A stretch of 22,351 bases of DNA from Candidatus Dadabacteria bacterium (GTDB taxonomy: Bacteria > Desulfobacterota_D > UBA1144 > Nemesobacterales > JADFKM01). Numbering within the stretch: the stretch's first letter is position 1; every line of letters starts with the position of its first letter. Made by a program: the position numbers and the translations under genes. The notes beneath the pieces are model-generated. The model saw only the letters and a program-made list of their open reading frames with translations, searched no databases and had not been told where the DNA came from. The stretch is taken from the NCBI GenBank assembly GCA_022564935.1, contig JADFKM010000033.1:1-22351 (forward strand), written 5' to 3'. This document shows positions 2,979-22,201 of the stretch, one piece after another.

Positions 2979-4748
2979 ATGACGCATTTAAGTACAGAAA
3001 CAATAAACGGCTCTTCTAAAGATGGAATCATCAATAACGATATAGAGAGCTTGATTGAAATCAGGCTCAAGGAAGAGAGAGCCAAGCTTGAAGAGGAGCT
3101 CGGCCTGGTACTACAGAAGGAGCCTGAACACTTCAAAAAGCCCGTGGAGCGCACCTTCACCAAATCCCAGAGGGAAAGCACCACCATCCTGTTCGGAGGT
3201 CTTACGTGGAAGCACGAGCATCTGGTGCACGGCGCCCTTGAGGGATTTGGCTACAAGTCTCAGTACATACCCACGCCTGACAAGAAGGCGTTTCAGCTTG
3301 GAAAGGAGTACGGCAACAACGGACAGTGCAACCCCACTTATTTTACGGTGGGGAACCTCATACAATTCCTGCAGGGTCTCGAAGAGAGCGGAATGTCGAA
3401 GGAAGAGATTCTGGATAAATACCTGTTCCTTACCGCAGGGGCTTGCGGCCCGTGCAGGTTCGGCATGTACGAGGCCGAATACAGGCTCGCTTTGAGGAAC
3501 TCCGGCTTCGGCGGCTTCAGGGTCATGCTATTCCAGCAGACCGGCGGACTCGACCAGGGGGAGGAATCAGAAGAAGGGATTGATCTGAACATGGATTTCT
3601 TCTTCGGCCTCCTCAACGCCCTCAACATGGGAGACCTGCTGGGTGACCTCGCGTACCAGCTCAGGCCGTTCGAGGTGAATGAGGGAGAGACCGACAGGGT
3701 GCTTACCGAAAGCATTAATTACCTGCACGACGTGCTGAGAGACCACAAGCCGTTTGAGCTTGAAGGAGGCTTATTAGATGTAGTGCGCAGGATACCGAAG
3801 CTTTCCGCTACTTCCAAGTACATAGGGAAGTTCCTGAACCAGCTCTATAGCGAAGAATACACCTCGGCGCTTAAAGTAGTCGGGGACAAGTTCAACGCAA
3901 TAGAGGTGGACCGCGCTAGGATTAGGCCGATAGTCAAGATAACAGGGGAGTTCTGGGCCCAGACCACGGAGGGGGACGGGAACTTCAACATGTTCAAGTT
4001 CCTCGAGACAGAAGGCGCGCAGGTGCTCGTCGAGCCGATAGGCACATGGATCATGTACATGATTCATCAGGCCAAGCAGAGCATAAAGGACAGGAAGGGA
4101 ATTCCTGAGGGCGGCGAAGCAGCCCCGAGCTGGTGGAGACTCGACCTTGCCCTATCCAGTTACAAAGACTATAAAATGAAATACGGCATGCTGTCTGCGG
4201 CCGAGGCGATTTTTAAGCGCGAGTGGAACAAGTTCAGGGATGCGCTGGGAGGCCTTCCCCACGACCTCACCGACCAGTACGAGCTGCAGAGGATAGGCCA
4301 CCCCTTCTACAACTCGAGGGCCGGGGGGGGAGAAGGACACCTCGAGGTTGCAAAGAACATCTACTACAGCAACAAAGACCTGTGTCATATGGTGTTGTCG
4401 TTGAAACCTTTTGGCTGCATGCCGAGCACACAGAGCGACGGAGCGCAGTCAGCCGTGGTCAACCTGTACAAGGATATGATCTATCTTCCCATAGAGACCT
4501 CTGGAGAGGGCGACGTCAACGCCCACAGCAGGGTGCAGATGGCCCTTGGCGAGGCGAAGTCGAAGGCCAAAAAGGAATTCAAACTGGCGCTTTCTGAGAC
4601 CGACTGCACGCTGGATGAGATAAAGGCATACGTTGATGACCACCCCGAGCTCAAGCGCCCCTTCTACCACGTTCCCCATTATAAAGGGGTTATTGGGGTA
4701 GGACCGAGCTTCGTTCGTCATGTGGGCGAGCTTATCAACGCAGGTTAG
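2979..4748 (+). CDS. 2-hydroxyglutaryl-CoA dehydratase-like Fe-S protein (activase-associated)
   Basis: This 589-aa protein belongs to the family that forms the C-terminal part of very long 'CoA-substrate-specific enzyme activase' proteins and is related to the 2-hydroxyglutaryl-CoA dehydratase D component. Visible marks are GNNGQCNPTYFTVGN (about 112-126) and ACGPCRFGMYEAEYR (155-169), with C117, C156 and C159. Another is KPFGCMPSTQSDG around C480. These cysteines are plausible [4Fe-4S] ligands. The first 60 residues are charged and probably helical. The start is supported by AGGGGG 8 nt upstream. It lies 60 bp before the double-ATPase gene, in the same direction and presumably cotranscribed. 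An inferred role is to accept ATP-driven low-potential electrons from that partner; the substrate is unknown. A run of eight G (4323-4330) lies inside the gene. Confidence 0.8.
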   Translation: MTHLSTETINGSSKDGIINNDIESLIEIRLKEERAKLEEELGLVLQKEPEHFKKPVERTFTKSQRESTTILFGGLTWKHEHLVHGALEGFGYKSQYIPTPDKKAFQLGKEYGNNGQCNPTYFTVGNLIQFLQGLEESGMSKEEILDKYLFLTAGACGPCRFGMYEAEYRLALRNSGFGGFRVMLFQQTGGLDQGEESEEGIDLNMDFFFGLLNALNMGDLLGDLAYQLRPFEVNEGETDRVLTESINYLHDVLRDHKPFELEGGLLDVVRRIPKLSATSKYIGKFLNQLYSEEYTSALKVVGDKFNAIEVDRARIRPIVKITGEFWAQTTEGDGNFNMFKFLETEGAQVLVEPIGTWIMYMIHQAKQSIKDRKGIPEGGEAAPSWWRLDLALSSYKDYKMKYGMLSAAEAIFKREWNKFRDALGGLPHDLTDQYELQRIGHPFYNSRAGGGEGHLEVAKNIYYSNKDLCHMVLSLKPFGCMPSTQSDGAQSAVVNLYKDMIYLPIETSGEGDVNAHSRVQMALGEAKSKAKKEFKLALSETDCTLDEIKAYVDDHPELKRPFYHVPHYKGVIGVGPSFVRHVGELINAG

Positions 4749-4808
4749 GTTGGTTGGATATTTGAGCGATCGGAACACTTAGTACGGTAATACAGTGGAG
4801 GTGCTTGA

Positions 4809-7800
4809 ATGGGTCAGCTGCTTAAAGAGCCGTTGTTTGTGGGATTAGATGTAGGGTCGACTACCGTAAAAGCGGTGGTAGTGGACACTACAACAGATGA
4901 AATTCTCTGGAAGGACTACCAGAGGCACGATACGAAACAACCAGAGAAGTCCTTTGAAATGCTGCAGCAAATCGAGAGCGACCTCGACGTTGCGCCCGAG
5001 GACCTCCGTATATTCATTACCGGAAGCGGCGGAGGCAATATAACTGCGCTTATCGGGGCCAAGTTCGTCCAGGAGGTAAACGCAGTCTCCCTTGCCGTGG
5101 AGAAGCTCCACCCCGAGGTCGGCTCAGTCGTAGAGCTTGGCGGCCAGGACGCAAAGATAATCATATTCAAAGAAGACCCTGAGACGGGGAACAAGAAAAA
5201 GATCCCCAGCATGAACGACAAGTGCGCCGGAGGCACAGGCGCCGTCATCGACAAGGTAAACGCAAAACTGAAAATCCCCTCGGACGAGCTCAGCAACATG
5301 GGCTACAATGGGTTGAAGCTCCACCCGGTTGCGGGCAAATGCGGCGTTTTTGCCGAGACCGACATCAACGGACTGCAGAAAATGGGGGTGCCCAGCGACG
5401 AGCTGATGGCTTCGCTGTTCGAGGCCATTGTGGGGCAGAATCTGGCCGTGCTTACCCGCGGGAACACACTCAGGCCGGTTGTGCTGCTGCTCGGAGGGCC
5501 GAACTGCTACGTTAAGGGAATGAAGGAAGCCTGGAAGTTCAACATTCCCAAGGTTTGGGAGGAGAGGAAATTTCCGCTTCCAGAGGGGGTCGACCCTGCG
5601 GACTTGATAAGGGTGCCTGATAACGCCCAGTACTTCGCCGCAATAGGCGCTGTCGAGTTCGGCAAGCAGGAAGAGCCCGGCATGGGTATCTACAAGGGAA
5701 CCAAGGACCTCGAGTACTACATAAACTACGGTAGGGCAGAGGAGAAGAAAGATAGCGGCTCGAGAGGGTTGAGCAAAGACCCCGAAGATCTCGAAGCGTT
5801 CAGGGAGAAGTATAAACCGAAGCCGTTTATCCCCGCCCGGTTCAAGAAGGGTGAAGTTATCGAGGGGTTCATAGGCCTCGACGGGGGCTCGACCTCCACA
5901 AAAGCCGTGCTTTTAAACAAGAATAGAGAGGTGCTCTTAAAGGTTTACCAGCTCTCCAAGGGCAACCCAATCGAAGACACGAAGGACATGTTCAATGCCC
6001 TGAGCGCCGAGGTTGAGGAGCAGGGAGCCACCCTCGAGGTTCTAGGCGTGGGCACCACGGGCTACGCAAAGGACATACTCGGGGACGTGCTGACGGCAGA
6101 TGTCGCACTCGTGGAGACGGTGGCCCACACCGAAGCCGGACTCCATTTCTACAAGAACGTGGACGTCATATGCGATGTGGGCGGACAGGACATCAAGATA
6201 ATGATCCTGAAGAACAGGCAGGTCAAGGACTTCAAGCTCAACACCCAGTGCTCTGCAGGCAACGGCTATTTCCTCCAGTCCACGGCCGAGGGCTTCGGTT
6301 TCGACGTTAAGGAGTATGCAGACCTTGCCTTTAAGGCCGAGTCCATGCCCAGTTTCGGCTACGGATGCGCCGTGTTCATGCAGTCCGACATAGTGGATTT
6401 TCAGCGACAGGGGTGGAAGGCCGAAGAGATCATGGCAGGACTAGCGGACGTGCTGCCCAAGAACATCTGGCTGTACGTCTCCCAGATACCGAACATTGCG
6501 AAGCTAGGGACCGACTTCCTGCTCCAGGGCGGCACGCAGCACAACCTGGCTGCGGTGAAGGCCCAGGTGGATTTTATCGAGTCCAGGTTCAGGGGCTCGG
6601 ATCTCAAGCCCCGGGTTGTGGTGCACGAGCACTGCGGCGAGAGCGGCGCAATAGGGGCTGGAATCGAGGCTGTCCGTCTTTGGGAAAACGGCAAAGTGAC
6701 GCAGTTCATCGGGCTGGACGCGGTTGAGCACATCACCTACGAAACACACAGGAGTGAAGACACCAGGTGCTACTTCTGCAAGAACAAGTGTTTAAGAACG
6801 TTTATAGACGTCAATGTCAAAGGGGACGAAGAGGTTCACGTGAACGCCAAATCCAAAATACCCGCCCCCGCCGGCATCAAGCGTCTCATAATTGGAAACA
6901 GCTGCGATAGAGGGCTGGTGGAAGACATTGAGTCCATGAAGGTGATAAAGAAGGGGATGGACGCACAGAAGAAGGAAAGCCCGAATTTAGTCGAGCTGGC
7001 CGCAAAAGCCGTCTGGAGGTCATTCAACCCTCCGGACGTCTCTGAGCCTCTCCCGTCTTACGCCATTACCGGAGCCCAGAAGAGGCGCCGGGAGCTTATG
7101 AGCAAGAGGGCCTCCATAAGGATAGGCATACCGAAGGTACTGAACATGTATTCGCTGAACCCGGTTTTCAGCGCCTACTTCGAGAGCCTGGGAGTTCAGC
7201 CCGAGAACCTCGTGTACTCGGATTTCACCACGGAGGAGCTTTACAAAGAGGGCGCTAAAAGGGGCGCCATCGACCCCTGCTTCCCGTCCAAGGTGGCAAT
7301 ACCCCACGTCCACAACCTGATTTACCGCCACCACAAGAAAAGGCCTCTGGACATCATCTTCTTCCCCATGATAGACAGTCTCACGACCGACTTGGTCAAT
7401 ACCCAGGACTGCAGGGCATGCCCGACCGTGACGGCCACCCCTGAGTCGGTAAAAGCTGCTTTTACCAAGGAGGGGAACGTGTTTGCCGAGCACGGCATCA
7501 GGTTCCTCGTCACGTTCCTGAATATAAACGACTACCCGCTCCTCGAAGTTCAGATGTACAACGAGTTCAAAGACATATTAGGCGTTTCTAAAAAGGAGAA
7601 CGAACTGGCGCTCAAGGAAGGGTTCAAGGCCCTTGACAAATACGAGAACGAGATCCTCAGGGGCAGTGCGCGCGAAGTAATAACCAAGCTTGAAGAGGAG
7701 CAAAAGCTCGGCATCGTCCTTCTGGGACGCCCCTACCATAACGACCCGGGCATCAACCACGAGATATTCGACGAGTTCCAGAAGCTCGGATATCCCGTTA

Positions 7801-8333
7801 TACCTCAGGACGCCCTCCCAATCGACGAAGACATTCTCGACAGGCTGTTCGGAGACGAGGTGAGGCAGGGAGTCATCTCTCACCCGATGGATATCACCGA
7901 CGTGTGGAAGAACTCTTACAGCGAGAACACAAGCCGCAAGGTATGGGCGGCAAAATACATCGCCAGGCATCCTAACCTGGTGGCCCTGGAGCTGTCGAAC
8001 TTCAAGTGCGGACACGACGCCCCGATATACACTGTCGTCGAAGAGATAGTGGAGGACGCAGGCACCCCGTACTTCTGCTTCAAGGACATCGACGAGAACA
8101 AGCCCACGGGCTCGATCAAGATAAGGGTCCAGACGATAGACTACTTCCTGAGAAGATTCAGAGAGGACATGGTAAAAGACAACGACAAGCGGGCGGAGAT
8201 CGACCGTAGGCTCGCCGAGCTCGAAGAAAAGCTCCGGGATGAGCTCACCTCAGAGCTCCAACCCCCGGACAGGGGCCCAAGCGGCGGAGGCTTAGGCGAA
8301 GAGCAGAGGGTGGTCTTTAAGCCGAGCGAGTGA
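4809..8333 (+). CDS. Double BadF/HgdC-type ATPase, CoA-dehydratase activase family (with DUF2229)
   Basis: The 1174-aa protein contains two tandem BadF/BadG/BcrA/BcrD-type ATPase modules. Module one (about 8-285) has DVGSTTVK, ELGGQDAK and NDKCAGGTGA. Module two (about 352-625) has DGGSTSTK, DVGGQDIK and TQCSAGNG. Each carries a cysteine pair 39 residues apart (C139/C178 and C481/C520), the spacing of the Fe-S ligands in the dimeric activator HgdC. One chain could therefore act as a pseudo-dimer holding one [4Fe-4S] cluster. A cysteine-rich linker (CYFCKNKC 654-661, GNSCDRG 697-702) leads into a DUF2229-like domain (about 770-960) with DPCFPSK and DCRACPT. A further conserved part (about 965-1120) has GRPYHNDPG and KCGHDAP. 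GGAGG lies 7 nt before the ATG. Family members couple ATP hydrolysis to low-potential electron transfer; the actual client here is not known. Confidence 0.88.
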   Translation: MGQLLKEPLFVGLDVGSTTVKAVVVDTTTDEILWKDYQRHDTKQPEKSFEMLQQIESDLDVAPEDLRIFITGSGGGNITALIGAKFVQEVNAVSLAVEKLHPEVGSVVELGGQDAKIIIFKEDPETGNKKKIPSMNDKCAGGTGAVIDKVNAKLKIPSDELSNMGYNGLKLHPVAGKCGVFAETDINGLQKMGVPSDELMASLFEAIVGQNLAVLTRGNTLRPVVLLLGGPNCYVKGMKEAWKFNIPKVWEERKFPLPEGVDPADLIRVPDNAQYFAAIGAVEFGKQEEPGMGIYKGTKDLEYYINYGRAEEKKDSGSRGLSKDPEDLEAFREKYKPKPFIPARFKKGEVIEGFIGLDGGSTSTKAVLLNKNREVLLKVYQLSKGNPIEDTKDMFNALSAEVEEQGATLEVLGVGTTGYAKDILGDVLTADVALVETVAHTEAGLHFYKNVDVICDVGGQDIKIMILKNRQVKDFKLNTQCSAGNGYFLQSTAEGFGFDVKEYADLAFKAESMPSFGYGCAVFMQSDIVDFQRQGWKAEEIMAGLADVLPKNIWLYVSQIPNIAKLGTDFLLQGGTQHNLAAVKAQVDFIESRFRGSDLKPRVVVHEHCGESGAIGAGIEAVRLWENGKVTQFIGLDAVEHITYETHRSEDTRCYFCKNKCLRTFIDVNVKGDEEVHVNAKSKIPAPAGIKRLIIGNSCDRGLVEDIESMKVIKKGMDAQKKESPNLVELAAKAVWRSFNPPDVSEPLPSYAITGAQKRRRELMSKRASIRIGIPKVLNMYSLNPVFSAYFESLGVQPENLVYSDFTTEELYKEGAKRGAIDPCFPSKVAIPHVHNLIYRHHKKRPLDIIFFPMIDSLTTDLVNTQDCRACPTVTATPESVKAAFTKEGNVFAEHGIRFLVTFLNINDYPLLEVQMYNEFKDILGVSKKENELALKEGFKALDKYENEILRGSAREVITKLEEEQKLGIVLLGRPYHNDPGINHEIFDEFQKLGYPVIPQDALPIDEDILDRLFGDEVRQGVISHPMDITDVWKNSYSENTSRKVWAAKYIARHPNLVALELSNFKCGHDAPIYTVVEEIVEDAGTPYFCFKDIDENKPTGSIKIRVQTIDYFLRRFREDMVKDNDKRAEIDRRLAELEEKLRDELTSELQPPDRGPSGGGLGEEQRVVFKPSE

Positions 8334-8947: not shown

Positions 8948-10270
8948 TCAGGCTTTAATGATTTTGTCCCTTCGGGTTTTCACGTCTCTCGTAGCGTTTC
9001 TAGTGTCCACTATCAACTGGCTGTTTTCTACAATCTCATCCCAATTGTAGCTCGAATGATCGGTCACAATCACTACGCAATCGTATTTTCCCGGAGTGTC
9101 TACCCTCAACGGCACCGATTCCATTTGTATGCTTTCGTTGTTTAGGGCAATAGCGGCGGATGGAACATAAGGATCATTATATTCCACGTCCGCATGATCT
9201 GCCTTCAGTAGGGATATAATTTTTAAGGCGGGAGATTCTCTAACATCATTTATATCCTTTTTGTATGATACGCCGAGAACGAGTATTTTCGATCCGTTTA
9301 AGCTTTTGCCGGCAACATTTAAGCCTTCACTTATTTTCCTTAACACATAGTATGGCAAATTCCTATTAATCTCTCCCGCAAGCTCTATGAAGCGCGTTCT
9401 GATTTCGTAGCGCCTTGCCTTCCATGTGAGATAGAAAGGGTCTATCGGTATGCAATGTCCACCCAATCCGGGGCCGGGATAAAATGGTACGAACCCAAAG
9501 GGTTTGGTGGAAGCGGCATCAATTACTTCCCAGATATCGATTCCCATTCGGTCAAAGATCAACTTTAATTCGTTTACGAGGGCAATGTTGACGGCCCTGT
9601 AGATATTTTCATAGATCTTTGCCGCTTCGGCCACATCCGTGGAAGATACCGACACCGTTTTAAATGAACCTTTATTATAAAGCGCTTCCGCCAGAAGCGC
9701 GCAGTTTGGAGTTACGCCCCCTAATAATTTGGGTATTTTCGAGGGGCTGAAGTTGGGGCTGCCCGGGTCTATCCTCTCAGGAGAATACGCGACGAAAAGG
9801 TCCTTGCCGACTTTAAGCCCTCGAGACTCCAATATCGGCACCAGCACTTCTCTTGTGGTTCCCGGATATGTCGTGCTTTCGAGTATGACGAGCTGGCCCT
9901 TCCTGCTATACTTAGAAATCGTATGGGCAGTGTCGGTAATGAACGAAAGGTTTGGCACCTGGTATTCGGTTAATGGAGTGGGAACACATATCAATACAAC
10001 ATTCACCCCTGAGAGGAGCGAAAAATCTGCGGTAGGCTGAAACCCATGTTTTAAAAGGGCTTTGACAGTCGAATTCTCTATATAGTTTATATAACTCTTC
10101 CCGCTCTTTAACTCGTCTATAATGCTTTGTTTGATATCAAAACCGACGACGGCAAAACCGGCTTTTGAGAACTCGATTGAGACTCCAAGTCCCACGTAGC
10201 CTAGTCCTATCACACCGATTTTCGCCTTTTTGGTGTTGATCTTTTGTAGTAAATCCTCTACTACCTTCAT
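8948..10270 (-). CDS. UDP-N-acetylglucosamine 6-dehydrogenase-like nucleotide-sugar dehydrogenase
   Basis: The 440-aa enzyme belongs to the UDP-glucose/GDP-mannose dehydrogenase family, which oxidises the C6 hydroxyl of a nucleotide sugar to a uronic acid using two NAD+. It has the Rossmann motif GLGYVG (22-27), a conserved ESTTYPGT (131-138) and SPERIDPG (163-170). The catalytic cysteine lies in GGHCIPIDP (C273), and the C-terminal domain carries LGVSYKKDINDVRESP. The stretch after the active site (PFYLTWKARRYEIRTRFIELAGEIN) resembles WbpA/TviB enzymes that act on UDP-GlcNAc more than UDP-glucose dehydrogenases. GGGAG precedes the ATG. It is last in the minus-strand polysaccharide operon, 38 bp after the exporter gene, and probably supplies the UDP-hexosaminuronic acid precursor. 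The family is certain; the UDP-GlcNAc substrate is an inference from resemblance. Confidence 0.9.
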   Translation of the reverse strand: MKVVEDLLQKINTKKAKIGVIGLGYVGLGVSIEFSKAGFAVVGFDIKQSIIDELKSGKSYINYIENSTVKALLKHGFQPTADFSLLSGVNVVLICVPTPLTEYQVPNLSFITDTAHTISKYSRKGQLVILESTTYPGTTREVLVPILESRGLKVGKDLFVAYSPERIDPGSPNFSPSKIPKLLGGVTPNCALLAEALYNKGSFKTVSVSSTDVAEAAKIYENIYRAVNIALVNELKLIFDRMGIDIWEVIDAASTKPFGFVPFYPGPGLGGHCIPIDPFYLTWKARRYEIRTRFIELAGEINRNLPYYVLRKISEGLNVAGKSLNGSKILVLGVSYKKDINDVRESPALKIISLLKADHADVEYNDPYVPSAAIALNNESIQMESVPLRVDTPGKYDCVVIVTDHSSYNWDEIVENSQLIVDTRNATRDVKTRRDKIIKA

Positions 10271-10308
10271 ATTCTCCCTTTAATTTTACATCTCAAGATC
10301 GATGCAGA

Positions 10309-12636
10309 CTAGAAACGTCGTTTAAGACTTCCCTGAACTGAGTAGGCATGGAACGCCCCGGTCTGCAGACGTGTATTGAAGATGCTTCCGCCCAGCACAA
10401 ACAACCAGTCGTCGTATATTCCGAAGAACGCTTCAGCCGCTCCGTTTCCGCTAAAACCGAAATTACCCTGTCTATCATCCTTTTGAACCCCCAGACCTCC
10501 GGACATGCTGATTCCGTTGTCGTCGTTGATCTTATAATACCCGAAGAGGGTGCCTAGATATCGCTGGTAAAATTCCGGATCGTAATAGCCGTTATCCAAA
10601 TCATCGCTGAACCCAAAAAGCATGGCGCTTGCTCCGATGTCAAGATTGAATCTCTGCCTGCGAAGGACTTCCTTTCGTGGGGAGAGGGTAAGTTCCCAAC
10701 GCCTGTTTTTATCAGAAAAGTGATCATACCTGAAACCGGCATCCGCATGATATCCAACCACCGGGTTCCAACGAAGCTGAATCAGGTTGGAGGCGCGCTT
10801 AACGCCGATGTCGATAGAGCGTGTGGAAATGAGATAGAAGCCGAATGAGCTGATAACTGAGACTCCTAAATCATCTCGAGGCTGGAAATTCAAATCCAGG
10901 AGATAAGTGGTTATATCGTCGTCCTCTGCGCTTGCTGAACCAATGCGGCCTTCGACATTTACCCTGGGATCGAGGAGGAAGCTCAGCCCTACCCACGCGT
11001 GGTAGTGCTGGGTATCCTCTTTGCCGTCCAGACCTTCAAGGCCGCTACCCCTTTCGGCATGCAGCTGGTCGGCCTCGACTCCAGCGAGCAGGCGTGTCTC
11101 GGGCCCAAAAAAGAATTCACCTTCTATGGCCTCGTGGATGATTATCATTTCATCGGAATCGAAATAAGCCCATGCCGACGGAGTTATGCTCGAGCGCATA
11201 GGCGTCATTACGAACCTCGTTATATCTGCTGTTCTGGGGCTGTCTGGCTGCATCTGTTTTAGTATTTCGAGGCTGTCTTTGGCCTCTCTGGGACGTCGGG
11301 CGGCGGCCAAAGCTAGGGACTTGGTGACGTGTAATTCATATTCGTCGGGGTATTTTTCAAGCTGCTCTTCCGTGATTTCAAGAGCGGCAGTGGGTCGATG
11401 CGCCGATGCCAAAACCCGGGCCAAGTCTTTAAAGTAATCGTCGGATTCACCAAAGTCCTCTCTATATCCTTCCAGTATTTTGAGCGCTCTGGGGGAGTTG
11501 CCTCGCCAGAATTCACTTCTTGCGTAATCAAGCCGCGCCTGTGAGTCAGCGGGGTTGGCCTCGACGTATTTCTTGTAATAGCCTGTGGCTTTATCGGTTT
11601 TCCCGGCCCATGTCATGATCCGCGCCATGCCGAGAAGCGATGGAGCATCGGCGGGCCTCTGGGCAAGTATGCGCTCGTAGCTGTCTTTTGCAATTTCGAA
11701 GATCCCGTTCCAGTTGGCTAAAACGGCCCGGGCCCTCAGATACTCTATATTGTCGGGGTCGATTTCGGTTGCCCGCTCAATCGCCTCCAGTGCAAGCGCC
11801 TTCTTATCGGCAACGCTGTAAGCTTGGGACAGTGTGTAGTAGAGAACAGGGTCATTTGGAGATGCAACAGTGGCTTGTCTCAGGGCGTCGGCCGCCGCAC
11901 CGGACCGTCCCAGCTTTGCCTCAATATCGGCGATTCGAATCCATAGGTCCACCCTGTGAGGCTCACGCTTGAGTGCAGATTTGTAATTCTCTATCGCATC
12001 CTCCCATCGCCCTTCCATCTCGGCCTTAAGGCCCTCGGCAACTTCATAGGAGCCCTCTCCGGGGGTATCATCATCTTTCACATAGAAAGTCCCCTCATAC
12101 CTCTTTGCATCACCTGCCGGATTTTCCGTTTCGTTTGAAGCCCTGTAGTTACCCGCTTTCTCCGCATTTTTAGTTGTGGTGAGGGGAGAATTTCCTATCG
12201 ATATAATTAGGTAATTCCCCTTGGTATATATGTTGTAACTTGCCACATAGTTGTCAAAATCTATTGCTATTCTCGTACCGTCTCCCGAGCTTAACTCTCT
12301 GAGGCGTACATTTTTTACGTTTTCAGAGTGAATACTTATGGTTTTGTTACCGATTATATTGCTAACACCCATGACGTCTACGAAAATTGTTGGCGGATCC
12401 CTTCTTACGTAGACGTTAAATTGAGCCACACCGTCGGTCTCAATGTAGACCTTGATATCATCGGAAAAAGCAATGTTTACCGAACTAATCCTTGTTGCAA
12501 AATTTGGTCTGTCTGGACGGGTATTACGTACACCGGTATTTGAAGCTCTAGCTACTGAAGGCTCCATATACATCAGCGCAAACACAAAAACAAACATTAT
12601 CAAGGAAAATAATATTTTCTTCACCGCACTGTCCAC
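10309..12636 (-). CDS. AMIN-TPR-beta-barrel outer-membrane polysaccharide export protein
   Basis: The 775-aa protein starts with a signal peptide (hydrophobic 9-23, cleavage near ARA 29-31). It continues with an AMIN-like domain (about 45-148, opening RISSVNIAFSDDIKVYIETD). A helical TPR region follows (about 198-465, with motifs such as WEDAIENYKSALKREP and ALEAIERATEIDPDN). The C-terminal 300 residues alternate polar and hydrophobic like a beta-barrel and end in Phe, as outer-membrane barrels do. TPR plus barrel is the plan of PgaA- and PelB-type exporters, which guide polymer through the periplasm and out. The AMIN domain at the front may bind peptidoglycan or polymer. The annotated start is GTG; an in-frame GTG at 12624 would give a more typical MKKILF leader. 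It lies between the glycosyltransferase and dehydrogenase genes, consistent with the export role. Confidence 0.82.
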   Translation of the reverse strand: MDSAVKKILFSLIMFVFVFALMYMEPSVARASNTGVRNTRPDRPNFATRISSVNIAFSDDIKVYIETDGVAQFNVYVRRDPPTIFVDVMGVSNIIGNKTISIHSENVKNVRLRELSSGDGTRIAIDFDNYVASYNIYTKGNYLIISIGNSPLTTTKNAEKAGNYRASNETENPAGDAKRYEGTFYVKDDDTPGEGSYEVAEGLKAEMEGRWEDAIENYKSALKREPHRVDLWIRIADIEAKLGRSGAAADALRQATVASPNDPVLYYTLSQAYSVADKKALALEAIERATEIDPDNIEYLRARAVLANWNGIFEIAKDSYERILAQRPADAPSLLGMARIMTWAGKTDKATGYYKKYVEANPADSQARLDYARSEFWRGNSPRALKILEGYREDFGESDDYFKDLARVLASAHRPTAALEITEEQLEKYPDEYELHVTKSLALAAARRPREAKDSLEILKQMQPDSPRTADITRFVMTPMRSSITPSAWAYFDSDEMIIIHEAIEGEFFFGPETRLLAGVEADQLHAERGSGLEGLDGKEDTQHYHAWVGLSFLLDPRVNVEGRIGSASAEDDDITTYLLDLNFQPRDDLGVSVISSFGFYLISTRSIDIGVKRASNLIQLRWNPVVGYHADAGFRYDHFSDKNRRWELTLSPRKEVLRRQRFNLDIGASAMLFGFSDDLDNGYYDPEFYQRYLGTLFGYYKINDDNGISMSGGLGVQKDDRQGNFGFSGNGAAEAFFGIYDDWLFVLGGSIFNTRLQTGAFHAYSVQGSLKRRF

Positions 12637-12702
12637 TCCACTGGTTATTCTAGCCTAGTAATTAGTATCAAAGCGCTAATTCTCCCTCGGCAATACTCGC
12701 CT

Positions 12703-14157
12703 CTACTTCCTCCAATCCCTTTTTCTAAGAATCCATAACTGGAAAGCGAAATGAAACATTGTATACAGGTCGAACATCAAGCTGAGATACCGTATAGGAA
12801 TTACCAAAATTCCCTTAACTAAATATTCCAAACGTCCGCCTTTTTCACTTCTTAAACGTAGTATTTTCTTATTCGAACCGCCCGCGGGCACATAACTTTC
12901 AAAACTGTACTTCTTTGATATAATTAAAATGGCTAGGAGTGATAAAACGCTTTCGGCTGCAACAGTGATGAGCAGAGCTTCCCACCACCTTAACAGAATC
13001 ATGACGAGCAGAGCGAGTGGGAAAAGAATCTTTTCAATCAGGGAAGTTAACATTATCCAGCCCATCGGACGGCCGAACTTTTTTGTATATTCCGCGCCGA
13101 AGGCTTGTCTGTACGGCTCCTGTATTTTTCTCTTTTCCTGTATTGATTTATCCGATTCTATTCTTTTTCTTTGCCGATATCGTTTAATTGCCTTAAATGG
13201 GCTCATTAACAGGTCGTTGAAGTAGTAACAACATTGAAAAAACGAAGACGACCACATGTAAATTTGTTTGGGCAAGCGTCGCACCTCGGGCTCTACTGAG
13301 CGGGCGAAAACGTCGTTGAGCTGGATGTTGCGATAGCCTTGGTTTATCATTGCAAACCCTATAAAAATGTCTTCAGAGTTTGTCAGGTCATCGCCTAAGA
13401 GCGGTTCATAGTGATCAAAAAGATCCTTTACGTATTTTCGTCTATAGGCCACTGCGCAGCCTATCGGATTTGTGATAGATCCGAAGAAAGCCATCTGACC
13501 GCGATAAATAAAACGCTCCAAGAAGTTGTATAAAGCATCACGATAGAGGTTTGTTATTCCCCCCTGAATACGGTCGAACCATCCAAGGGGAGGGTGAATT
13601 GAAGCGGTGGGCTCATGGGCGAGGAATTTTCTCAGAGGCGGCGAGGCGAGCAAATTGTTTCTATCCCCATCGTACAGGGGCAATATTACCCCACAGGCGC
13701 TTGCGATCCCCACGGCCTGATAGAGCTCCTGGACTGTTCGCTCAATGTAATTTTCGGACTCTAGAACGGTGTCGGCATCAAGAATAAACTCCACATCGGA
13801 ATCAAATTCCCTGGACTGGCGTTTTATTGTCGGAGTTTTACCGATTGGTGCGCTACGGCGAATCGTGAGTAAATCCATACCGTTGAGCTTACAGAAATGT
13901 TCTGCGAATTTGGCCGTATTATCTGTGCTTCCATCGTCAACAAGTATTATATTTTTCGGCTTTATTGTTTGGCGGGCAAGGGAAGCTAGGCACAGAGGGA
14001 TGTTATTTTCCTCATTTAGGGCGGGAATTACCACGTCAACAGTCGCATCACGCCAATCTTCAGCAGGAGTCGGCACCGTTTTGTCCGGCCCTTTGATTAA
14101 ACCTATTATACTCATAAGGGTGCTTGGGCCGAAAACAAAATATGGAAGGACAGCCAT
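12703..14157 (-). CDS. Membrane glycosyltransferase family 2 (processive polysaccharide synthase candidate)
   Basis: This 484-aa protein has a GT-A fold glycosyltransferase domain. It opens DVVIPALNEENN (41-52), then VDDGSTDNT (73-81), the metal-binding DAD (127-129) and the catalytic-type ED in NSEDIFIGF (260-268). The usual synthase motif Q-x-x-R-W is replaced by RRLPKQIYMWSSS (293-305). A short N-terminal hydrophobic segment (about 3-22) and at least three C-terminal ones (about 380-425 and 455-475) anchor it in the inner membrane, as in PgaC-like synthases. I use the ATG at 14157 (AGGTG 4-5 nt upstream), 7 nt after the stop of the preceding epimerase gene, which implies translational coupling; an in-frame start at 14211 would overlap that gene. 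In this operon it would polymerise and translocate the nucleotide-sugar product. The linkage and sugar are unknown. Confidence 0.87.
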   Translation of the reverse strand: MAVLPYFVFGPSTLMSIIGLIKGPDKTVPTPAEDWRDATVDVVIPALNEENNIPLCLASLARQTIKPKNIILVDDGSTDNTAKFAEHFCKLNGMDLLTIRRSAPIGKTPTIKRQSREFDSDVEFILDADTVLESENYIERTVQELYQAVGIASACGVILPLYDGDRNNLLASPPLRKFLAHEPTASIHPPLGWFDRIQGGITNLYRDALYNFLERFIYRGQMAFFGSITNPIGCAVAYRRKYVKDLFDHYEPLLGDDLTNSEDIFIGFAMINQGYRNIQLNDVFARSVEPEVRRLPKQIYMWSSSFFQCCYYFNDLLMSPFKAIKRYRQRKRIESDKSIQEKRKIQEPYRQAFGAEYTKKFGRPMGWIMLTSLIEKILFPLALLVMILLRWWEALLITVAAESVLSLLAILIISKKYSFESYVPAGGSNKKILRLRSEKGGRLEYLVKGILVIPIRYLSLMFDLYTMFHFAFQLWILRKRDWRK

Positions 14158-14164
14158 ATTACAC

Positions 14165-15157
14165 CTAACCCTCTTTCTTTCCCTCGCTTGATTTAGCCCT
14201 TTGCTCGGCAATTAAGTCATCTATCGTCCGCTCCAGGGACCACTGGAGTTTATATTTTATCAGTTTAAACAGCTTCTTGAGGTCCGGCTTACGCCTTCTC
14301 ACATCAACAAATCCCTCCCCGTATGCGTCTTCATAGGATACATGAACGATTTTCGAACTACTGTTAGCCCTTTCTATTATTAGCTCAGCCAGAGCCTGGA
14401 TACTGATTTCCTCATCTTTACCTACGTTGACGATCTGGCCGTTTGCAGAGGGATTTTCAGCAAGTTTGTCAAACATTACTACGGCATCTCTTACATCACA
14501 GAAAGATCGTGTCTGGGTGCCGTCCCCGTACACCGTAACCGGCTCTGAAGAGACTGCCTGTTGAATGAATCTCGGAACCACCATTCCATATTGCCCCATT
14601 TGTCTACTGCCGATGACGTTGAAGATTCGTAGGATAGAAATCCTTAAACCATACTTCTGGACGAATGAAAGCCCCAATGCTTCATCCGCCATCTTGCTTA
14701 TCGCGTAATTCCAACGAGAATTCACGTCGGGTGTTACGACAAGTGTTCTTTCTTCGTCCAGTGTAGACCTTCCACTTGTTCCGTAAACCTCAGAGCTTGA
14801 GGCCATAAGAATCACAGGGTTCCAGCCGCTGTCACGGACAAAACGAAGCACTCGTTCGCTGCCCGCAATGTTTGTGGCCAAGACCCTTGTGGGCTCTTCT
14901 ATAACCTTGAATATACCCACGACCCCGGCCATGTGGTAGATTCTATCTGCCCATGAAACGGCTTTGTCCAGGTCCGGCCAGATGAGGATATCGGCTTCGT
15001 CAAATCGAAAATTGGAGTTATCCGAATATTGGGCAATATTGTCGAGGGAGCCTGTTAATAAGTTGTCCACAACATGAACATTGTCTCCCCTGTCCATATG
15101 GTAGGTTACTATATGAGAACCTATGAATCCTGCTCCACCCGTAACTAAAACGTGCAT
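14165..15157 (-). CDS. NAD-dependent nucleotide-sugar epimerase/dehydratase (extended SDR)
   Basis: The 330-aa enzyme is an extended short-chain dehydrogenase/reductase. It has the N-terminal NAD motif GGAGFIGS (7-14), the catalytic serine region MASSSEVYG (118-126) and the YxxxK pair Y151/K155 in NYAISK. Substrate-binding signatures follow: RIFNVIG (177-183), MVVPRF (192-197) and VYGDGTQTRSFCDVRD (209-224). This pattern covers UDP-hexose 4-epimerases and UDP-glucuronate decarboxylases. With a UDP-GlcNAc 6-dehydrogenase-like gene in the same operon, a UDP-GlcNAcA 4-epimerase (TviC-like) role is attractive but unproved. The ATG at 15157 is chosen because GAGG lies 5 nt upstream; a GTG two codons earlier would overlap that ribosome site. 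It is the first gene of the four-gene minus-strand operon. Confidence 0.88.
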   Translation of the reverse strand: MHVLVTGGAGFIGSHIVTYHMDRGDNVHVVDNLLTGSLDNIAQYSDNSNFRFDEADILIWPDLDKAVSWADRIYHMAGVVGIFKVIEEPTRVLATNIAGSERVLRFVRDSGWNPVILMASSSEVYGTSGRSTLDEERTLVVTPDVNSRWNYAISKMADEALGLSFVQKYGLRISILRIFNVIGSRQMGQYGMVVPRFIQQAVSSEPVTVYGDGTQTRSFCDVRDAVVMFDKLAENPSANGQIVNVGKDEEISIQALAELIIERANSSSKIVHVSYEDAYGEGFVDVRRRKPDLKKLFKLIKYKLQWSLERTIDDLIAEQRAKSSEGKKEG

Positions 15158-15175
15158 AAACACCTCAGTTGATTA

Positions 15176-15181
15176 ATTATA
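15176..15181 (-). promoter_or_regulatory. Possible -10 box of the polysaccharide operon
   Basis: TATAAT occurs on the minus strand about 20 bp before the first start codon, in very AT-rich DNA. There is no clear -35, and the leader would be only about a dozen bases, so this is weak. Confidence 0.3.
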
Positions 15182-15609
15182 TTATTATCGAATATTTTGG
15201 GAATAATACGAGTAAAACTTAATTATATACTTTATCATTCAATATATCTAGTATCTTTGTTTATTTTTAAAGAGGGAGTGGGGATAATTGCGTTCAGCGT
15301 GCCCGAGTATATGACCCCCTTGGGCGGCGAGGAGGCCGAGGGTCTTTATAGGAGCTACCTAGGAGAGCCTTCTAAAAATACCGAGTGACTCTTGTTTTTC
15401 GGTTTTCATGATGCGCTTTGAATGTGTAAAAACGACTGGGAAGTTGAGTGTTTTCACGCTTTAAGGCGGGCGTGATAATTTATTGGAATAGCATTGTTGA
15501 AATTGCTGGAGAAAACCATGCTCTCTCATGAGCATATCTCTTTGGGTACCAGTATAGGGAATCACTAGCTCCTTATTTAGCATAACTAACTATTATCGTA
15601 AATTTTCTA

Positions 15610-15638
15610 TTGACGCACACATTGAATTATGCTATAAG
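15610..15638 (+). promoter_or_regulatory. Strong sigma-70 promoter, TTGACG-17-TATAAG with extended -10
   Basis: The -35 TTGACG and -10 TATAAG are separated by exactly 17 bp, and TGC precedes the -10. It is the clearest sigma-70 promoter in the window. The start would fall near 15645, leaving a leader of about 310 nt before the beta-helix gene at 15956. Confidence 0.7.
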
Positions 15639-15657
15639 CACTATGAGAGGTGAGTGA

Positions 15658-15717
15658 ATGAATAATGGGTCGGGGTCACCATACCAATCTAAATACTGGG
15701 TTGCCACACTTATTTAA
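15658..15717 (+). CDS. Possible 19-codon leader peptide
   Basis: MNNGSGSPYQSKYWVATLI is encoded immediately after the strong promoter and is preceded by GAGGTGA at 4-5 nt, a good ribosome site. It has no recognised homologue and is too short to judge by composition. It could be a regulatory leader peptide, a small protein, or chance. The case rests on promoter and ribosome site only. Confidence 0.35.
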   Translation: MNNGSGSPYQSKYWVATLI

Positions 15718-15869
15718 GGTAGAAGAGCGGGTTCTAACTTTCACTTTCAACTAATCCTCTAACGGTATCTCACTAGCAGACAAAACCTCTTGAGAAATCA
15801 TAATAGGTCGAGCTTCGTGTAAAAGCTTGGGTTGTTATTTTATCCACCTATCTCACACCTATTTTCGAG

Positions 15870-15918
15870 TAAGGAGGTGATGCCTATTGAAGTAGATAAT
15901 ATTCGACATTTTTTTTAA
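15870..15918 (+). promoter_or_regulatory. Perfect anti-16S-complementary Shine-Dalgarno with 12-codon micro-ORF
   Basis: TAAGGAGGTGAT (15870-15881) is a 12-base perfect complement of the 3' end of 16S rRNA. The only start nearby is the ATG at 15880, which overlaps the element (too close for normal initiation) and would encode MPIEVDNIRHFF. The element sits 75 bp before the true beta-helix start, so it may hold ribosomes in the leader rather than initiate a protein. Confidence 0.4.
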
Positions 15919-15955
15919 TTGTGTGAATAAGAAAACAAAAGAGGAGAAACTTATC

Positions 15956-17116
15956 ATGAAAAGGTTAGTAATTTTGCAAGCGATAGTAATAATGCTGATT
16001 CTCATGGCATTTGGCAGTGAACAGGCGGTAGCGGCTAAATTGGTTGTCGATGACGATTCTGTCGAATGTCCTACGGCGGGATTCGCCACCATCGGCGCAG
16101 CACTGGCTGCTGCAAGTTCCAATGACACAATCGAAGTCTGTCCCGGCACCTACTTCGAGGCGGTGGTCATCATCTTGAACGGCATTACCCTCAAAGGTAA
16201 ACCAGCGCCAGGGGCCATCCTGGATGGCACCGGACAGCTACCAGCTGATAACTGCATAACGATAGCGCCCGGCGTGAGCGGCGTCACCATCAAGGACCTT
16301 GAGATTCAGAATTGCAATAACCGGGGGATCCGCGGCCCCGGGACCGTTGCTTTGCCCCTTTCCCACATCAAGCTGAAGGATCTCGACATCCACGCTGTTT
16401 CCCAGGTGGCGGGCGATGGCCATGCTATCGATTTCGTGCACGCCGCCCATGTGAAAATTAAAGACGTCGCCGTCGCCGTTGGTCCCTTAGCCGGGTTTTT
16501 TGCAGAAGCCATCCGGCTTCAAAGTGTTAGCCCCGTAACGGTGGACAATGTCCATATAGTCGGCGGCTTCGTCGGCGTGAACTTTGCCTGCAGCGATCCT
16601 TGCGGCGATCCAGTTCCAGAACCGCCCACAAACGGGATCATTAAACACAGTACCATCTCTGGCACCACCGATAATGGCGTGCTGCTCGCGAACACCACCC
16701 ACGCAATAATCGACGGGAACGTGATTGCCGGTGCTGGATTTGCGGGCATCCAGGTTGGATTTAGAGCTGTCAATCCGGTAACGGGCGTTCAGATTTTCAA
16801 TAACGTGGTAACGGGTACGGTTCTAGCACCTATTGGTCACGGTATTGCGCTGGCCAGAGGCTCAAGCGGCAGCACGGTCAAGAATAACATCGTAACAGGT
16901 AACGGTACGGACGGTATTTTTGCCGGGACTATAGTAGGGACTGGCGGGAGCACTGGCGGGAATACCATTGACCATAACGTCTCTAACGGCAACACAGGAT
17001 TCGGGTACGTTGACGACGGAACGGGATTTGCGGTCAACGTTTTCTTCCAGAATGAGTGCAAGGCAAACACTGCCGGTGGGTCTGACCCCACTGGGTTGTG
17101 CGTGCCACAAACATAA
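15956..17116 (+). CDS. Secreted right-handed parallel beta-helix repeat protein
   Basis: The 386-aa protein begins with a signal peptide (hydrophobic 4-19, cleavage near AVAA 24-27). Its opening DDDSVECPTAGFATIGAALA, followed by NDTIEVCPGTY (56-66), is the usual entry of pectate-lyase-like/NosD-type beta-helix proteins. Repeats rich in NNxVTGNxxDGI-like turns follow (for example VKNNIVTGNGTDGIF and GNTIDHNVSNGN), each forming one rung. No lyase catalytic residues stand out, so a surface or polysaccharide-binding role is as likely as an enzyme. The ATG at 15956 is chosen for GAGGAG 9 nt upstream and because it begins the signal peptide; an earlier in-frame GTG adds 11 charged residues. It stands alone, between a strong promoter and a strong terminator, next to the polysaccharide operon but on the opposite strand. 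Confidence 0.85.
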   Translation: MKRLVILQAIVIMLILMAFGSEQAVAAKLVVDDDSVECPTAGFATIGAALAAASSNDTIEVCPGTYFEAVVIILNGITLKGKPAPGAILDGTGQLPADNCITIAPGVSGVTIKDLEIQNCNNRGIRGPGTVALPLSHIKLKDLDIHAVSQVAGDGHAIDFVHAAHVKIKDVAVAVGPLAGFFAEAIRLQSVSPVTVDNVHIVGGFVGVNFACSDPCGDPVPEPPTNGIIKHSTISGTTDNGVLLANTTHAIIDGNVIAGAGFAGIQVGFRAVNPVTGVQIFNNVVTGTVLAPIGHGIALARGSSGSTVKNNIVTGNGTDGIFAGTIVGTGGSTGGNTIDHNVSNGNTGFGYVDDGTGFAVNVFFQNECKANTAGGSDPTGLCVPQT

Positions 17117-21008: not shown

Positions 21009-21085
21009 GGGGATGTAGCTCAGCCCGGGAGAGCGCCGCCTTCGCAAGGCGGAGGTCGGGGGTTCGATTCCCCTCATCTCCACCA
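21009..21085 (+). tRNA. tRNA-Ala (anticodon CGC), CCA encoded
   Basis: The cloverleaf is complete. Acceptor GGGGATG pairs with CATCTCC and includes a G3-U70 pair, the alanine identity element; the discriminator base is A73. The D stem is GCTC/GAGC and the anticodon stem is CCGCC/GGCGG, with loop TTCGCAA and anticodon CGC at 21043-21045 (reads GCG). The T arm is GGGGG-TTCGATT-CCCCT. CCA is encoded at 21083-21085. It is the likely attachment site for the adjacent integrase element. Confidence 0.95.
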
Positions 21086-21109
21086 ATGATTACAGGTACT
21101 TACGCAACA

Positions 21110-22201
21110 TCAAACTTCCTCTGGATTTTCACTGGTACGGTTTTCGGGACGGTTTGTGTTGAATTTTTCTAAAACCAGCACCGCTTCATTGACGCTCTGC
21201 TCTGGGTGAGAGTACCTCTCAGTTATCCTGACGGTAGAATGGCCCAAGAGCTTTGCCACGGCGTGAAGGGGGACTCCCCCCTCTACCATCCGGGTTGCCG
21301 CGGTGTGTCTCAAGTCGTGAAACCTTAGCCCCTCGATACCTGCATTTTTACAGGCCGTCCTAAAAGAGTGCTTAACCCAGTTCAGATGATGCTCTATCCC
21401 TTTAGGGCTTGGGAACACATAATCGCTCCCCCCGGATGCGAGCTTGCGCTCTAACAGCACCGTTCTTATAACCGAGTTAATTGGCACTCTCCTCATCTTC
21501 TTAGCCTTAGTGTTGGTCTGGGGCAGGCTGATAAGGCCAAGCGTTAAGTCTATCCACTCCCACTTGAGACCCAAAATTTCACCTTGACGCATGCCGGTAT
21601 GCAGGGCAATGATTACGGCATCTCTCAAGTGCCTAGGACATGCTGCTAAAAGCTTCGGCTCCTCTTCTGGGCTAAGGATGCGCTCCTTTAGGTCATTTAC
21701 CTCAGGCATACCTGACGAGCTCACGGGGTTATCCCCATAGAAACGCCTCCACTTACGGGCCTGGTTAAACAGGTGGCGGATTGAATTTAGTTCTCTCTTA
21801 ATAGTCCCGAGCTTTACACCCTCCTCAAGCCTTCTTTGCTTGTATATATCCACGTCCTCTGGGGTTATCTCGTTAAGCTTTTTCTCTACATAGAACCGCT
21901 TAAAATGATTCACCGCCTCTTTAGTCCTACTATGAGAGCGAATCTGCTTTACGTCTCTCTGATAGGCTACGTACTCCTCTGCAAACTCGCCGAGCGTAGG
22001 GATGACGTCAATGATGTCGAACTCCCCTAACCGAAGCCGCCTCTTGGTCTCCTCAAGCACAGCCCGGGCCTGCGTCTTGGTTACGGGCCCCGCAGGGCCA
22101 ATAGACCGCTTTATCTCCCTGCCGTTGTGCCACAGCCTGTAGTACCAGTAGGGGGTCTTAGAGCCGTCCTTACTCTCGTGGTATCTTTTGAAAACTCCCA
22201 T
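21110..22201 (-). CDS. Tyrosine-type site-specific recombinase (phage-like integrase)
   Basis: The 363-aa protein has an N-terminal DNA-binding arm (about 1-60, with YWYYRLWHNGREIKRSIG). A SAM-like core-binding domain (about 68-160) and a C-terminal catalytic domain (about 175-345) follow. Catalytic residues are R205 (HTGMRQGE), H295 and R298 in HDLRH, H321 (LLGHST) and nucleophile Y330 (ITERYSH). All the usual R-H-R-H-Y positions are present, so it should be active. GGAGG is 9 nt before the ATG, and the upstream small gene ends 6 bp earlier, so the two are probably coupled. It integrates and excises the element by recombining attachment sites, here most likely the adjacent tRNA-Ala 3' end. 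The C-terminal tail (345-363) is polar and non-catalytic. Confidence 0.93.
   Translation of the reverse strand: MGVFKRYHESKDGSKTPYWYYRLWHNGREIKRSIGPAGPVTKTQARAVLEETKRRLRLGEFDIIDVIPTLGEFAEEYVAYQRDVKQIRSHSRTKEAVNHFKRFYVEKKLNEITPEDVDIYKQRRLEEGVKLGTIKRELNSIRHLFNQARKWRRFYGDNPVSSSGMPEVNDLKERILSPEEEPKLLAACPRHLRDAVIIALHTGMRQGEILGLKWEWIDLTLGLISLPQTNTKAKKMRRVPINSVIRTVLLERKLASGGSDYVFPSPKGIEHHLNWVKHSFRTACKNAGIEGLRFHDLRHTAATRMVEGGVPLHAVAKLLGHSTVRITERYSHPEQSVNEAVLVLEKFNTNRPENRTSENPEEV

Follow-up and report, generated by a model that had tools for sequence, protein, structure and literature searches.

A compact gene cluster whose core is found in four phyla is a candidate locus for synthase-dependent export of an amino-pentose polymer

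Four adjacent genes in a Candidatus Dadabacteria MAG (2.0 Mb, 89% complete) very probably form a polysaccharide export locus of the synthase-dependent type. They lie on contig C29 (JADFKM010000033.1), whose 22,351 nucleotides are called the window here, and three of them make up a core that keeps its order across four phyla. We propose that this compact machine makes a polymer of a UDP-XylNAc-type pentosamine and exports it through a PgaA-like barrel, a model whose chances, taken as a whole, we consider evenly divided.

In the proposed pathway, the dehydrogenase would turn UDP-GlcNAc, or an epimer of it at C4 or C2, into the uronate by oxidation, and the SDR would decarboxylate this UDP-uronate to a UDP-2-acetamido-2-deoxy-pentose, either UDP-N-acetylxylosamine or a stereoisomer. 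Bacillus cereus NVH 391-98 is known to run both steps, from UDP-GlcNAc through UDP-GlcNAcA to UDP-XylNAc (PMC5078965). The inner-membrane GT2 would polymerize the acetamido-pentose, alone or with GlcNAc, and feed the chain to the periplasm, where the TPR part of the exporter would guide it through the PgaA-like barrel. Most relatives have, in addition, a CE4 enzyme that would remove part of the acetyl groups in the periplasm and a GH10 enzyme that would trim the chain, the jobs of PgaB or PelA. Gene content and order, the cross-phylum core, the kinship of the barrel with PgaA, the decarboxylase-type residues of the SDR, and the dehydrogenases in or beside many loci are observed here; the substrate, the decarboxylation, the processivity, and the export of an amino-pentose polymer are inferred. 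That the polymer contains a 2-acetamido-pentose is a claim we would back and doubt in equal measure; that it is a homopolymer or near-homopolymer of this sugar is a tentative suggestion.

Four minus-strand genes form a compact operon

The genes occupy positions 8948-15157 on the minus strand and are separated by 7, 66, and 38 bases, so we read them as one operon. The first encodes an extended SDR (14165-15157; Epimerase, PF01370, E = 6e-50) whose signature residues resemble those of UXS/ArnA-type NDP-sugar decarboxylases; position 15157, the end coordinate given in the earlier note, is its ATG. It is followed by a membrane-attached GT2, the proposed polymerase (12703-14157; PF00535, E = 4e-21), recognized also by its motifs and hydrophobic segments, by an AMIN-TPR-barrel exporter with a GTG start (10309-12636), and by a UDP-HexNAc-type 6-dehydrogenase (8948-10270) with all three UDPG_MGDP_dh domains. 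Upstream of the operon is a divergent, AT-rich intergenic region (15164-15922; 38% GC), in which sigma-70-like promoter matches, by consensus only, point toward the SDR at 15176-15250. GC content at third codon positions is 0.48 to 0.54 in the operon versus 0.58 to 0.75 in neighboring genes, and the lower value is compatible with acquisition from elsewhere.

No Wzx, Wzy, ABC transporter, deacetylase, or glycoside hydrolase was found among the window genes scanned, which bears out the earlier description of the locus as free of Wzx/Wzy and ABC export, and none of the four genes has a c-di-GMP receptor Pfam domain. The flanking genes, which encode a BadF/DUF2229 activase, a beta-helix protein, and LeuA, have no clear tie to polysaccharide synthesis. 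The beta-helix protein (15923-17116, plus strand; NosD-like, right-handed, secreted) diverges from the operon and may be a lyase or else an unrelated surface protein, and no such gene was noticed at the relatives' loci. On the other side, the plus-strand pair at 2979-8333 encodes a 589-amino-acid protein without a Pfam match and then a 1,174-amino-acid double BadF/BcrA ATPase with DUF2229; the pair is acyl-CoA dehydratase activase-like and adjoins a GAF-sigma54 regulator (619-2697). At 21009-22201, a minus-strand gene for a phage-type integrase (PF00589) lies 24 bases after a tRNA-Ala(CGC) gene, as in integrative elements that use a tRNA gene.

The SDR-GT2-exporter core is sparse and conserved in order

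The phylum of the window is small, and among its 57 genomes searched no close GT2 or exporter homolog was found beyond the window's own genome. A scan of species genomes matched one contig, from a Thiobacillus MAG (L033), in which the SDR, GT2, and exporter are 55%, 60%, and 38% identical to those of the window and keep their order. Nine of 399 genomes of the order Burkholderiales carry a GT2 at 76 to 100% identity to that of L033, and all eight Burkholderiales loci examined (L033 and L068-L074) contain the core. Among 398 genomes surveyed from the whole phylum of L033, only the reference genome itself gave a GT2 match, indicating that the core is rare. The three genes also occur in the same order in 1 of 395 Desulfobacterota-type and 1 of 395 Nitrospirota-type genomes; these two phylum names, like the order name Burkholderiales, are taken from the titles of the loci at the center of each search and from general taxonomy. 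Sparse presence in four phyla, together with GT2 identities of 53 to 63% across them, argues for horizontal spread, and the core looks like a sparse, horizontally spread system of synthase-dependent type. A plasmid search with the GT2 gave no match.

Chance clustering was rejected because gene order is the same in four phyla, and a Wzx/Wzy or ABC type of locus because such genes are absent from the loci examined. The compact synthase-dependent locus type that had been described from the window alone (precursor enzymes, GT2, and TPR-barrel exporter) holds up, with its gene order kept across phyla, and in no relative examined does the GT2 belong to a larger Wzy-type locus. As a set, the four genes are not strictly conserved: the unit that is kept consists of the SDR, GT2, and exporter in fixed order, and the dehydrogenase in many cases lies at a different place or belongs to a different subfamily.

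The dehydrogenase is no fixed member, and different subfamilies stand in or beside several core loci. In L072-L074, the operon order is SDR, GT2, exporter, CE4 polysaccharide deacetylase, GH10, and, last, a TviB-type UDP-GlcNAc dehydrogenase. L068-L070 have the order SDR-GT2-exporter-CE4-GH10 and lack a dehydrogenase beside the core, as does L033. Convergent genes for a TviB-type dehydrogenase and a CE4 enzyme adjoin the Nitrospirota locus; the Desulfobacterota locus has a divergent nucleotide-sugar dehydrogenase gene downstream of the exporter, with an ambiguous active-site motif (GGYCLPKD). The Thiobacillus MAG carries a TviB-type gene on another contig, adjoining a gene for a TviC-like epimerase (SSSTYG, GDVRHS) that served as a C4-epimerase contrast below.

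The accessory enzymes are likewise variable: the CE4 deacetylase is found in seven of the eight Burkholderiales loci and the GH10 hydrolase in six, with CE4 but no GH10 found in L071 and neither beside the core in L033. The window genome, at 89% completeness, gave no CE4 match in a search that was positive in 11 of 14 control genomes; a GH10 query, run both times without a positive control, matched neither this genome nor the Thiobacillus MAG. The periplasmic modification enzymes of synthase-dependent systems (PMC7112194) were accordingly not seen in the window genome, and most relatives have them as CE4 and GH10. The absence of an accessory deacetylase and hydrolase, pointed out in the earlier note, is true of the window copy and is no hallmark of the family, since most relatives' operons include both.

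The SDR carries decarboxylase-type residues

The best equivalog matches of the window dehydrogenase are UDP-HexNAc dehydrogenases (269, 229, and 224 bits, versus 147 and 125 for UDP-glucose dehydrogenases). It is nearer the WecC/TviB/WbpA type than UDP-glucose dehydrogenase, and its catalytic Cys is present in the active-site motif GGHCIPIDP.

The window SDR has the motifs SSSEVYG, RWNYAISK, and RRRKPD. A profile built from nine operon SDRs and searched against the PDB scored 180 bits with human UXS1, a UDP-glucuronate decarboxylase, and 178 bits with 8vr2, whose entry title is Pcryo_0617 oxidoreductase/decarboxylase; UDP-GlcNAc C4-epimerases scored 121 to 139 bits (WbpP, 121). When aligned with controls, every operon SDR shows Tyr-x3-Lys, an S[ST]SEVYG motif that contains the catalytic Glu, and R-x-P where ArnA has R619, a residue that mutagenesis has targeted (entry 1z74). 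UXS, ArnA, and 8vr2 share the latter two features, 8vr2 with the variant SEVFG. The positions of ArnA E434 and R619 are both kept throughout, and the GalE, RmlB, Gmd, and TviC-like controls lack this Glu and Arg pair. AlphaFold models made from nine-row alignments were poor (pLDDT 43 for the SDR and 45 for the GT2), and fold comparisons therefore carry little weight.

In a tree, the operon SDRs fall in one clade (support 95/97) with one Legionella and one Streptomyces protein, separate from UXS. These two proteins are more distant, and both adjoin a UDP-HexNAc-type dehydrogenase. The strongest argument for UDP-HexNAcA as the substrate is that this SDR clade is linked to UDP-HexNAc dehydrogenases from more than one subfamily. 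We consider the SDR probably a decarboxylase and propose that it is a UDP-N-acetylhexosaminuronate decarboxylase. The family assignments first made for the four genes thus stand except for "epimerase," since the signature residues are those of decarboxylases and not of C4-epimerases. The prediction that went with it, a polymer containing an N-acetyl-hexosaminuronic acid, gives way to N-acetyl-pentosamine as the likelier constituent because the SDR is probably a decarboxylase.

The same machine could nonetheless polymerize an N-acetylhexosaminuronic acid if the SDR were a C4-epimerase giving UDP-GalNAcA, as for Vi antigen, or stood off the main line. The UDP-HexNAc type of the dehydrogenase favors this, as do the TviB-type enzymes in relatives, a type known to pair with TviC, and a match of the TviC model to the window SDR (82 of 760 bits, below the cut-off). 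The operon SDRs, however, have the decarboxylase pair and lack the C4-epimerase signature of the Thiobacillus TviC-like protein, and the GH10 partner points to a pentosyl chain, on which, to our knowledge, GH10 enzymes act in nearly all characterized cases. We regard the uronic acid polymer as unlikely. Likeness to the Vi antigen locus (tviBCDE, vexABCDE) extends to a UDP-GlcNAc 6-dehydrogenase with an extended SDR; the window differs in its glycosyltransferase, in an SDR without the TviC-like signature, and in having no ABC exporter of VexABCD type among the genes scanned, and its dehydrogenase also falls below the TviB cut-off (229 of 592 bits).

GH10 partners have lost a conserved Asn

GH10 with CE4 is the classic xylan pair, and the operon GH10 match is strong (E = 2e-101). 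Together with UDP-glucuronate decarboxylase as the top match of the SDR profile, this raises the prospect of a true xylan-like polymer, made from UDP-glucose through UDP-GlcA and UDP-xylose, with the GH10 an ordinary xylanase and the CE4 an acetylxylan esterase. An Asn precedes the acid/base Glu in clan GH-A and contacts the C2-OH of the sugar at subsite -1. This Asn is Ser or Ala in all six operon GH10s (L068-L070 and L072-L074), which keep both catalytic Glu residues, but is retained in 11 of 12 control GH10s and changed in one unrelated control. Loss of the residue contacting the C2-OH speaks against xylan, as do the dehydrogenases in or beside the loci, which score as UDP-HexNAc and not UDP-Glc enzymes, and the separation of the SDR clade from the UXS clade; we hold a xylan-like product to be quite improbable. 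The Asn loss would fit a C2-modified substrate and the GH10 itself a pentose chain, both in agreement with the amino-pentose polymer without proving it. SE or AE in place of Asn-Glu may mark GH10 enzymes that are specific for something other than xylan.

A GT2 and a PgaA-like barrel suggest polymerization with export

The listed TTG start of the GT2 overlaps the SDR; the conserved start is the ATG at 14157. The protein has one N-terminal and several C-terminal hydrophobic segments, the GT-A acidic motifs DDGS and DADT, and the motifs SED and QIYMW. Processive synthases carry QxxRW, and Q-x-x-M/L-W stands at this place in the GT2; neither form was found in the Desulfobacterota copy. The better family matches of the GT2s are NodC and PgaC, both of which use UDP-GlcNAc, and these cover the GT-A half only. 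Against the PDB, too, the GT-A half alone matches, to assorted transferases, and no solved synthase is homologous over the full length.

The exporter consists of an N-terminal hydrophobic signal or anchor, an AMIN domain (residues 60-133; 12238-12459; E = 8e-7), a TPR region (about residues 203-470; 11227-12030; E = 1e-24), and a C-terminal PgaA-like beta-barrel (residues 483-775; 10312-11190) that ends in RRF, all encoded on the minus strand. Among the exporters scanned, only that of the window has an AMIN domain. The window barrel matches PgaA weakly (20 bits), and one homolog passes the Pfam PgaA_barrel cut-off. When a barrel profile from nine sequences was searched against all PDB chains, PgaA (4y25; E = 6e-4) was the sole match up to E = 1. 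Outer-membrane barrels end in an aromatic residue, and the C terminus is aromatic (RRF or WRF) in all exporters examined. The exporter thus appears to combine the periplasmic TPR domain and outer-membrane pore of synthase-dependent systems (PMC7112194).

From this genomic context, the GT2 is likely processive. That it is instead a non-processive enzyme decorating a lipid or surface glycan, beside a TPR-barrel protein that exports no glycan, would suit the atypical QxxM/LW motif and the PDB matches, which fall on the GT-A half of a mixed set of transferases, but is very doubtful given its constant linkage to the PgaA-like TPR-barrel, the CE4 and GH10 of most relatives, and the fact that no Wzx, Wzy, ligase, or lipid-carrier genes were noticed in the loci examined.

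Comparison with described systems

The locus resembles the Pga system (PNAG, pgaABCD) in its PgaC-related GT2, its TPR and PgaA-like barrel protein, and, in relatives, a CE4 deacetylase and a glycoside hydrolase. It differs in that no PgaD was seen, the deacetylase and hydrolase are separate genes missing from the window, the hydrolase is a GH10, and a dedicated dehydrogenase and decarboxylase-like SDR are present; the Pga equivalog cut-offs are missed by far (exporter to PgaA, 91 of 367 bits; GT2 to PgaC, 41 of 422 bits). Pel loci (PelA/PelB/PelF, some with the PelX epimerase) share synthase-type export through a TPR-barrel, a deacetylase and hydrolase, and in some cases an SDR acting on UDP-GlcNAc, but here the transferase is a GT2 and not the GT4 PelF, the SDR is nearer decarboxylases than PelX-type epimerases, and no c-di-GMP receptor was seen. 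The UDP-GlcNAc 6-DH/UXNAcS pair of B. cereus NVH 391-98, likened by its described pathway, performs the same two steps as our proposed route, whereas no polymerase or exporter is described with it (PMC5078965).

A 2020 survey lists five synthase-dependent polymers: cellulose, acetylated cellulose, PNAG, alginate, and Pel (PMC7112194). Our literature search returned nothing relevant on N-acetylxylosamine polymers, bacterial xylan synthase loci, YaiO polysaccharide systems, or Pcryo_0617, and as far as we found an amino-pentose polymer is undescribed. The small, apparently horizontally spread locus is a candidate for a further synthase-dependent polymer. It would be speculative to name a sixth kind, namely poly-N-acetylxylosamine (in effect, chitin or PNAG minus C6) or a related 2-acetamido-pentose polymer, that leaves the cell through a PgaA-like barrel and is trimmed in relatives by a GH10 re-tuned from xylanase to a C2-amino pentose. 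UDP-N-acetylxylosamine, for which the literature searched gave no polymer, may have its physiological role at such a locus, and the model predicts GH10 activity outside xylan breakdown. Hosts of the locus are uncultured lineages and Thiobacillaceae-type bacteria, some of them culturable.

The two more distant members of the SDR clade lie in other settings. In Legionella adelaidensis, a plasmid (L094; NZ_LR134418.1, 5768-12155) bears an analogous operon that shares a UDP-HexNAc-type dehydrogenase, an SDR of the same clade, a GT2, and an outer-membrane barrel; unlike the core family, it has a YaiO barrel and a HEAT protein in place of the TPR-PgaA barrel, a different GT2 with canonical QxxRW, and an additional TviC-like SDR. 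On a Streptomyces sp. NBC_01001 plasmid (L095, 2566-8963), an SDR of this clade is accompanied by a UDP-HexNAc-type dehydrogenase, itself divergent, by transferases of the MraY and TagA types, and by an LCP protein, a locus that possibly places the same sugar in a wall polymer.
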